DNA of 64,000 nucleotides from Spartobacteria bacterium (GTDB lineage: Bacteria > Verrucomicrobiota > Verrucomicrobiia > Chthoniobacterales > UBA10450). Positions 46,501-52,701 of this stretch are shown piece after piece (positions within the stretch are counted from its first letter, which is position 1; every line of letters begins with the position of its first letter). Under the pieces are notes generated by a model. It was not told where the DNA came from. It ran no database searches and saw only the letters and a list, made by a program, of their open reading frames with translations. The position numbers and the translations under genes are program-made. The stretch is from NCBI GenBank assembly GCA_003167365.1, contig PMTM01000009.1:62001-126000 (forward strand), in the 5' to 3' direction.

Positions 46501-46588
46501 GGAGGGGTGGTCGAGCGGTTTATGGCTCCGGTCTTGAAAACCGGCAAGGCGCAAGCCTTCGTGGGTTCGAATCCCACCCCCTCCGCCA
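46501..46588 (+). tRNA. tRNA-Ser (UGA anticodon)
   Basis: The 88-nt gene has acceptor stem GGAGGGG (46501-46507) with CCCCTCC (46578-46584), discriminator G and an encoded CCA (46586-46588). The anticodon stem-loop CCGGT-CTTGAAA-ACCGG gives anticodon TGA, and the T arm is GTGGG-TTCGAAT-CCCAC. The long variable arm (AAGGCGCAAGCCTT) is the class II hallmark of serine tRNAs. It reads UCA and, by wobble, other UCN codons. Confidence 0.96.
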
Positions 46589-51158: not shown

Positions 51159-51863
51159 CTACTCGGAAACGTAGAGAATCCTGCCGCACTGTTCGCAGTT
51201 GACGATTTCTTTGCCGGCTTTGGCGTGCATGATAGTCGCCGTCGTCACTTTCATGTGGCAACCGGTGCAAACATTGTGCTCGAGCGCGACAATCGCCGCA
51301 TCGCCTTTGCTCTCAAAAAGGCGCTCGAACCGATCGAGCAAATCTTCGTCGATCTTCGCGGCCAACTCCGCGCGCTCGTTCGTCAATTCCTGTAAACGCG
51401 ATTCCAACGTTTTGGACTTCTCGTCGAGATCGACAAGTTGACGTGAAATAGATTCCTTGGTCGCACCTGCTTTCTTCTCTTCCTCGACCAGCTCGGCCTT
51501 GACCTTGTCGGCTTGCATCATCAGCTCGAGCTCTTGGTCCTCGATCTTCTTGATTTCATTTTCGTAACGCTCGATCTCATGGCCCATCGCCTGGAACTCG
51601 TCGTTCTTGCGTGTCTCGTATTGCTGCGTTCGCAACTTCGCGATGCTATTGCTGCGTGTGCCGACGTCGAGCTCAAGGTTCTTGCGGTCGACTTCGACCT
51701 GGCGTCCTTTTTGCTTCAGCGCTTCCACACCCGCGATGCTCGCCGCCAATTGCGCTTCCAGATTCGCTCTTTGCTGCGGCAACGTTTTTATTTCCGTCTG
51801 GATCTGTCTGATCTTTTGCTGTCGATCTTGAATAATCAGCAGTTGTTCCAGTTCCGAATGCAC
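51159..51863 (-). CDS. Coiled-coil protein with C-terminal C4 zinc ribbon (DUF164/CT398-like)
   Basis: The 234-residue protein is a long antiparallel coiled coil (about residues 5-175, rich in E, K, Q, R and L heptads). It is followed by a zinc-ribbon with CTGC (about 200) and CEQC (about 222) in NVCTGCHMKV and IVNCEQCGRILYV. This is the zf-RING_7/DUF164 family; homologues such as chlamydial CT398 and Hp0958 bind sigma-54 or flagellar/secretion partners. No partner gene adjoins it. The stop lies 8 bases from the stop of the convergent gene. Confidence 0.9.
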   Translation of the reverse strand: MHSELEQLLIIQDRQQKIRQIQTEIKTLPQQRANLEAQLAASIAGVEALKQKGRQVEVDRKNLELDVGTRSNSIAKLRTQQYETRKNDEFQAMGHEIERYENEIKKIEDQELELMMQADKVKAELVEEEKKAGATKESISRQLVDLDEKSKTLESRLQELTNERAELAAKIDEDLLDRFERLFESKGDAAIVALEHNVCTGCHMKVTTATIMHAKAGKEIVNCEQCGRILYVSE

Positions 51864-51900
51864 GGCCCGGAAGTTATTGGTTCAACCGAGCGGCGTCAAT

Positions 51901-52701
51901 CTAAGGTGCGACTTTACCGCTCAGTTCGTCGAAAATCTGCAGGACCTCTTCGGGCCGCGCCCGCACGCCGATGCTTTCGGTCAAATTTACCCAGCGGATA
52001 ATACCGGTAGAGTCGATCAGAAACTCGGCCGGACGGGCAATATCAGCGCCTTTTGGTCCTCCGCCTCGATGCAACAGATCGTAACTCCGAATGACTTCAG
52101 CCTTCGCATCGGAGAGAAACGGGTAAGTAAATCCCATCTTTCGGCAATGCCGCTGATTCGTCTCTACCGGATCGACGCTGATGGCGACAACGCGAATACC
52201 TCGCGTATCGAAGTCCGAAAGCCGTTGCTGGAAACTCCGCAACTCGGAGTTACAGAGTGGTCACCAGAAACCGCGGTAAAAAATCAATACCGCGCCTCCT
52301 GGTTTCCCCGCCGGCGATAAAATCAGGTCGGCTAATGCGACCTGCTTATCGTTCTGGTCCGGTAAAGTGAACTCCGGCGCCTTTTGTCCCACGCGCGGCG
52401 CTTCCGCTGAGGCGGGCAGCTGTTTCAATTCGTAAAAGACGATGTAGGAAAAGAGCGCGAAAACCAGCACACTCAGAATGGTCAAGATCGTTCCGAAAAC
52501 TTTGCCGCGATAAAGTTTCGGTTTTCCGAATGCGCGCGTGAGGCCGACGATGAGAAGAATTCCGCCGATGCCGAATAATAAGAAGTTCGCCCACGGAAAA
52601 TCCCGCGTGAGCGGAAATTGAACGAAAAAGGTATAACTGAGGAAGCCGGCCAGCGCGAAAAGAAATCCCGCCCACAGCGACCAGTTCCAGTTTCTCTTCA
52701 T
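51901..52701 (-). CDS. Membrane-anchored peroxiredoxin-like selenoprotein (in-frame UGA read as Sec147)
   Basis: Two frames (52701-52264 and 52260-51901) are in the same phase and separated only by a TGA at 52261-52263. Together they make one 266-residue protein: three N-terminal helices (about 10-30, 37-58, 70-92), then an AhpC/TSA-type domain beginning VGQKAPEFTLPDQNDKQVAL. The UGA falls in FYRGFW-U-PLCNSELRSFQ, exactly where peroxiredoxin-like proteins have the peroxidatic Cys (FYRGFWCPxC), and conserved redoxin sequence continues after it (VVAISVDP, YPFLSD, PAEFLID). A stem-loop of bacterial SECIS form follows (52233-52251). The start at 52701 excludes REPIN-derived residues. A simple nonsense mutation is the alternative. 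Confidence 0.82.
52233..52251 (-). promoter_or_regulatory. Putative bacterial SECIS element
   Basis: Starting 9 nt after the UGA on the coding strand, AACTCCG-AGTTG-CGGAGTT forms a perfect 7-bp stem with a 5-nt loop. The loop begins 16 nt after the UGA and has G as its second base. As I recall the bSECIS criteria, the UGA-to-loop distance is about 16-37 nt with a G in the first two loop positions; this hairpin meets both. Confidence 0.7.

Follow-up and report, generated by a model that had tools for sequence, protein, structure and literature searches.

The locus raises two questions: whether a single TGA within a long minus-strand reading frame is a stop codon or is decoded as selenocysteine (Sec), and, in the latter case, what kind of redox protein results. 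The frame lies within the window (the whole 64,000-nucleotide stretch of DNA that was analysed); it runs from an ATG at 52701 to a TAG at 51903–51901 and comprises 266 residues with one internal TGA (52263–52261), which stands in the context FYRGFW-U-PLC in the product. The start codon is backed by the N-terminal sequence MKxxWNW, which is conserved among orthologues. When the TGA was read as a residue, residues 104–237 matched AhpC-TSA (PF00578) at 107.5 bits (cut-off 26 bits), and the match ran across the TGA. An earlier reading made from the letters of this DNA (the sequence-only reading) had described one frame broken by a single TGA, with family-like sequence on both sides, and had expected gene callers to split the gene; these points were borne out, the mechanical ORF list containing two fragments of 161 and 113 aa. 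Standard gene calling would split the Sec gene, which illustrates how mechanical gene calling cuts selenoprotein genes in two. TGA also serves as an ordinary stop codon and ends nine of the 36 long ORFs in the window, so that the recoding is local and the code is not globally changed. The coordinates of the features are given in Table 1.

Table 1. Features of the putative selenoprotein locus and of a second Sec gene in the same genome (positions refer to the window unless a contig is named).
Feature	Position	Strand	Details
Putative selenoprotein CDS	51901..52701	minus	266 aa, Sec at residue 147, TAG end
In-frame TGA, predicted Sec147 of UPLC motif	52261..52263	minus	TGA in 28/28 aligned orthologues
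Predicted bSECIS hairpin AACTCCG-AGTTG-CGGAGTT	52233..52251	minus	7 bp, loop AGUUG, 16 nt from UGA to apical loop
Predicted membrane anchor, three hydrophobic helices	52426..52683	minus	Model helices 7–26, 37–59, 67–92
Peroxiredoxin-fold domain (model)	51916..52404	minus	Residues 100–262, UxxC 147–150, Pro224
Downstream neighbour, CT398-like coiled coil + C4-type zinc-ribbon protein	51159..51863	minus	Pfam
Formate dehydrogenase alpha	Contig C1, ~298191–301010	minus	L124, TGA at L124:1822–1824

Three N-terminal hydrophobic stretches were found by hydropathy analysis, and an AlphaFold2 model (mean pLDDT 85.5) consisted of three N-terminal helices followed by a peroxiredoxin-fold domain; both support the membrane anchoring proposed earlier. 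Helices 2 and 3 are joined by the strongly basic loop TRAFGKPKLYRGK, so by the positive-inside rule the domain would lie outside; it probably faces the periplasm, with the N-terminus inside. In the complete product of 266 residues the three predicted transmembrane helices would hold the peroxiredoxin-fold domain in the periplasm. The closest solved structures by fold were peroxidases, and comparison of the modelled domain with M. tuberculosis AhpE gave a Z score of 23.3 and an rmsd of 1.5 over 151 residues.

The active site differs from that of these enzymes. Sec147 aligned with the active-site Thr/Ser of solved peroxiredoxins and Cys150 with their peroxidatic Cys; the sequence-only reading had placed Sec at the peroxidatic Cys, and this assignment has to be corrected. 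Pro224 aligned with Arg116 of AhpE (the R116A chain 4xih has Ala in the same column) and is invariant both in the UxxC close relatives and in the CxxC distant ones. In place of the T-x-x-C/U motif and catalytic Arg of peroxiredoxins, the protein therefore has Sec for Thr and Pro224 for Arg, and within PF00578 it carries UPLC at the TxxC position. Its identification as a peroxiredoxin was accordingly replaced by that of a thioredoxin-type UxxC site in a peroxiredoxin fold. Thioredoxin-like oxidoreductases, among them ResA, combine a UxxC pair with Pro in this position.

The protein had been proposed to be a Sec-containing peroxidase in which Sec serves as the peroxidatic residue for hydroperoxide reduction. 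The peroxiredoxin fold and the AhpC/TSA domain agree with such a function, and a Sec that stands first in UxxC would in principle be capable of attacking peroxide; the location of Sec at the Thr/Ser position, the exchange of the active-site Arg for an invariant Pro and the scores of all curated peroxiredoxin models, which fall far below their cut-offs, make it unlikely. Oxidoreductase rather than peroxidase chemistry is the likely alternative. As a membrane-tethered thiol-disulfide oxidoreductase with ResA/TlpA-like chemistry, the protein would form a reversible selenenylsulfide within the Sec-x-x-Cys pair, with nucleophilic attack by Sec147 and resolution by Cys150.

The best NCBIfam match was to ResA (NF002854), although its 56.8 bits lie below the cut-off of 170 for membership. 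With ResA/TlpA-type oxidoreductases (NF002854; PDB entries 1st9 and 3c71) the protein shares a CxxC-type site at the same place and a domain carried on a membrane anchor; it differs from them in its three predicted transmembrane helices and in having Sec for the first Cys. SelL-related redox proteins (NF040769) likewise have a Prx-like fold with the redox pair at the same place. All 26 aligned members matched the NF040769 model weakly, and the protein itself scored 42.5 bits (cut-off 120); its motif is UxxC, whereas that of SelL is UxxU. The Sec-peroxiredoxin PrxU (NF040737; 33.8 bits, cut-off 270) also has an active-site Sec in a peroxiredoxin fold, but its Sec stands in for the peroxidatic Cys (TxxU), and here Sec would occupy the Thr position (UxxC). 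A further peroxiredoxin-like protein with Sec, the cd02970/AhpC-TSA_2 selenoprotein (PMC13188914), has UxxS where this protein has UxxC; no AhpC-TSA_2 match was returned for the present protein, which matches AhpC-TSA (PF00578).

The Prx-like thiol:disulfide oxidoreductases (PF00578, UxxC/UxxU) are a listed selenoprotein family (PMC13188914, PMC9312934, PMC1088965 survey). Like the UxxC members of that family, the protein has an AhpC/TSA domain, UxxC in place of the peroxiredoxin TxxC and a putative bSECIS element downstream; it may differ from them in its predicted three-helix N-terminal anchor, and it differs in that its close relatives were found almost only in one Verrucomicrobia-type family. 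Since the UxxC Prx-like family is already listed, the protein counts as an added member, perhaps of a new membrane-anchored subfamily. An open-literature search returned no description of this protein in Verrucomicrobia, and Verrucomicrobia are not mentioned in the selenoproteome literature searched (open papers). We tentatively suggest a distinct subfamily, not separately described, of Sec-only, lineage-restricted, membrane-anchored periplasmic redox proteins in soil Verrucomicrobia; their family would lack a Cys form, and they could function at the membrane as a selenium-dependent disulfide reductase or as an electron-transfer partner.

Whether the TGA is decoded as Sec was addressed by comparison with related genomes. 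Close relatives of the gene were found in 32 of the 83 genomes of the family, with identities of about 58–72% for most, and every such match that spanned the site contained a TGA. The codon itself was TGA, and never Cys, throughout the 28 aligned orthologues and the close relatives in which it was read. Distant Bacteroidetes homologues from public genomes have a Cys codon (TGC/TGT) at this site, in the sequence FYRGFWCPxCN; the alignment of homologues that the sequence-only reading had suggested as a check thus gave a conserved UGA in orthologues and Cys in more distant homologues. A Cys orthologue was sought throughout the family and order and none was found: all site-spanning matches at E < 1e-30 carry TGA, and the weaker site-spanning matches without TGA are only 30–40% identical. 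Among 388 genomes drawn from the phylum, no relative at E < 1e-25 was found outside the family. Amino-acid identity across the 28 orthologues was 0.685 upstream and 0.678 downstream of the TGA, and the downstream differences at the three codon positions (0.22/0.16/0.55) were concentrated at third positions, a pattern indicating that purifying selection continues straight through the TGA.

The source genome (3.13 Mb in 24 contigs, estimated completeness 100%) was searched for the Sec machinery, as had also been suggested. selA, selB, selC and selD, the set that accompanies a bacterial selenoprotein, are all present and form a complete contiguous cluster in the order selC-selD-selA-selB on contig C13, apart from the contig of the window. 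The protein genes each scored above the curated cut-off (selB, 337.5 bits; selA, 482 bits; selD, 379 bits), and tRNA-Sec (selC) with a UCA anticodon scored 70.4 bits (gathering score 47). An Rfam scan of the window returned only a tRNA-Ser (TGA anticodon, 46501–46588) and no other RNA family at threshold. This tRNA-Ser scored 47.9 bits against the Rfam tRNA-Sec model; the gathering threshold of 47 alone does not separate tRNA-Ser from tRNA-Sec here, and the tRNA-Sec call therefore rests on the 70.4-bit match with its UCA anticodon. The same genome contains a second Sec gene, that for formate dehydrogenase alpha, in which the codon of the canonical Sec site (NQARI-U-HSSTV) is TGA and a stable hairpin is predicted after it. 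Across the family, selA was present in 28 of 32 carriers of the gene and in 25 of 51 non-carriers (Fisher p = 3e-4), and in genomes at least 90% complete it was present in 8/8 carriers and 10/22 non-carriers (p = 0.007); the p-values serve only as a guide, since the tests assume independence among genomes that are not in fact independent. selA was missing from four carriers, all of them incomplete MAGs; judged by the completeness of the carriers, 4.8 losses of this kind would be expected.

The hairpin reported earlier, a perfect 7 bp stem with the loop AGTTG beginning 9 nt after the TGA, was found as described at 52251–52233. No other such hairpin sequence occurs in the window, even when three mismatches are allowed (chance expectation 0.01). 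Published constraints on bSECIS elements are an upper stem of 4–16 bp, a loop of 3–9 nt with G in the first two loop positions, 16–37 nt between UGA and loop and an MFE of at most −7.5 kcal/mol (PMC13188914). The present element has 7 bp, the 5 nt loop AGUUG with G at the second position followed by U, a predicted −8.9 kcal/mol and a spacing of 16 nt, the shortest that the published range allows (PMC13188914). Single-sequence folding of the region was not significant (z = −1.48), and an alternative 11 bp fold is more stable on paper; it was rejected as it is intact in only 16 of the 30 orthologue sequences and broken in 14. The 7 bp pairs are intact in 30/30 distinct sequences, the sole change in the stem being U-A to U-G. 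It is conservation, and only conservation, that identifies the 7 bp hairpin as the constrained fold; covariation cannot confirm the pairing because the hairpin is all but invariant and has no compensatory changes. Third-position differences were 0.000 in the hairpin codons compared with 0.55 in the remaining downstream region, and in hairpin codons 151–156 the share of the top codon was 1.00, compared with a mean of 0.615 for other conserved residues (Mann–Whitney p = 3e-5; the codon alignment omitted L050, one of two sequences whose loop is altered). Because the comparison values come from the same genes, the freezing is not accounted for by shared ancestry. The description of the hairpin as bSECIS-like is supported both by the published constraints and by this conservation at the nucleotide level, and the frozen 19 nt would be an unusually clean natural case of nucleotide-level bSECIS constraint.

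The UGA might instead be read through without selenium, by misreading with tRNA-Trp or tRNA-Cys, or might bring about programmed termination to give a short membrane protein, the hairpin being regulatory or a terminator. A hairpin after a stop codon can promote readthrough, and truncation would still leave a membrane protein. Against this stand the Cys at the site in homologues, the tracking of the gene by selA, the full Sec apparatus and the second Sec gene; moreover, the distance and loop of the hairpin fit a bSECIS element, and a terminator was rejected as its cause because the terminator-like matches do not include the hairpin. Readthrough or programmed termination is therefore very unlikely. 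A pseudogene or sequencing error, to which the stop itself and the loss or fragmentation of the gene in some relatives might point, appears for practical purposes to be already refuted, because every aligned orthologue has the same TGA, the assemblies being independent, and downstream selection equals that upstream; the unrelated stop codons and degraded downstream sequence that the sequence-only reading had named as evidence against itself were not what the relatives contained. Freezing of the hairpin by another overlapping feature, such as the antisense plus-strand ORF at 51877–52320 that is open across it in the window, is scarcely credible, given that any antisense frame across the stretch is open in at most 13 of the 28 orthologues and that the freezing is limited to the hairpin codons and a Gln codon soon after, not the whole antisense ORF.

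The TGA-containing gene is thus very probably a true selenoprotein gene, and the earlier proposal that the UGA is decoded as Sec is supported by the machinery, the second Sec gene, the conserved TGA and the frozen hairpin. SelB carrying Sec-tRNA(UCA) would bind the hairpin downstream of the UGA, and Sec would be inserted at position 147. We infer Sec insertion in vivo and, likewise, the topology, chemistry and partners of the protein. On this genomic evidence a well-supported candidate selenoprotein is added for an uncultured soil lineage.

The zinc-ribbon gene adjoins the selenoprotein gene in 30 related loci; it is a conserved gene-order partner that plays no role in the Sec mechanism. On the upstream side, 28 related loci have an OPT transporter gene, which is of two types: in L036, L048 and L055 it is a divergent neighbour of 80–85% identity, and in the others, L026 and L030 included, it is a distant paralogue (~26–35%) lying upstream. 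The zinc-ribbon gene was used to locate the same locus in 20 relatives without the full gene. No Cys version was seen, and relatives lacking the gene displayed either clean absence or a deletion remnant at this locus; where the OPT and zinc-ribbon genes are still neighbours in non-carriers, the gap between them is short (for example ~110 bp in L104). In one relative (L106, G057:C45, 2946–3219) a remnant in which residues 1–49 are joined to residues 224–265 lies beside an intact zinc-ribbon gene. The gene thus appears to have been lost outright and not converted to a Cys form, which would make it a testable case of Sec dependence. One genome (G073, contigs C29 and C60) has two copies of the gene, the second ~50% identical, with one TGA in each. 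One contig assigned to a Deltaproteobacteria MAG (L055) bears a copy that is 68% identical and has the same zinc-ribbon and OPT genes beside it; it is probably misbinned or mislabelled Verrucomicrobia DNA, or possibly the result of transfer.
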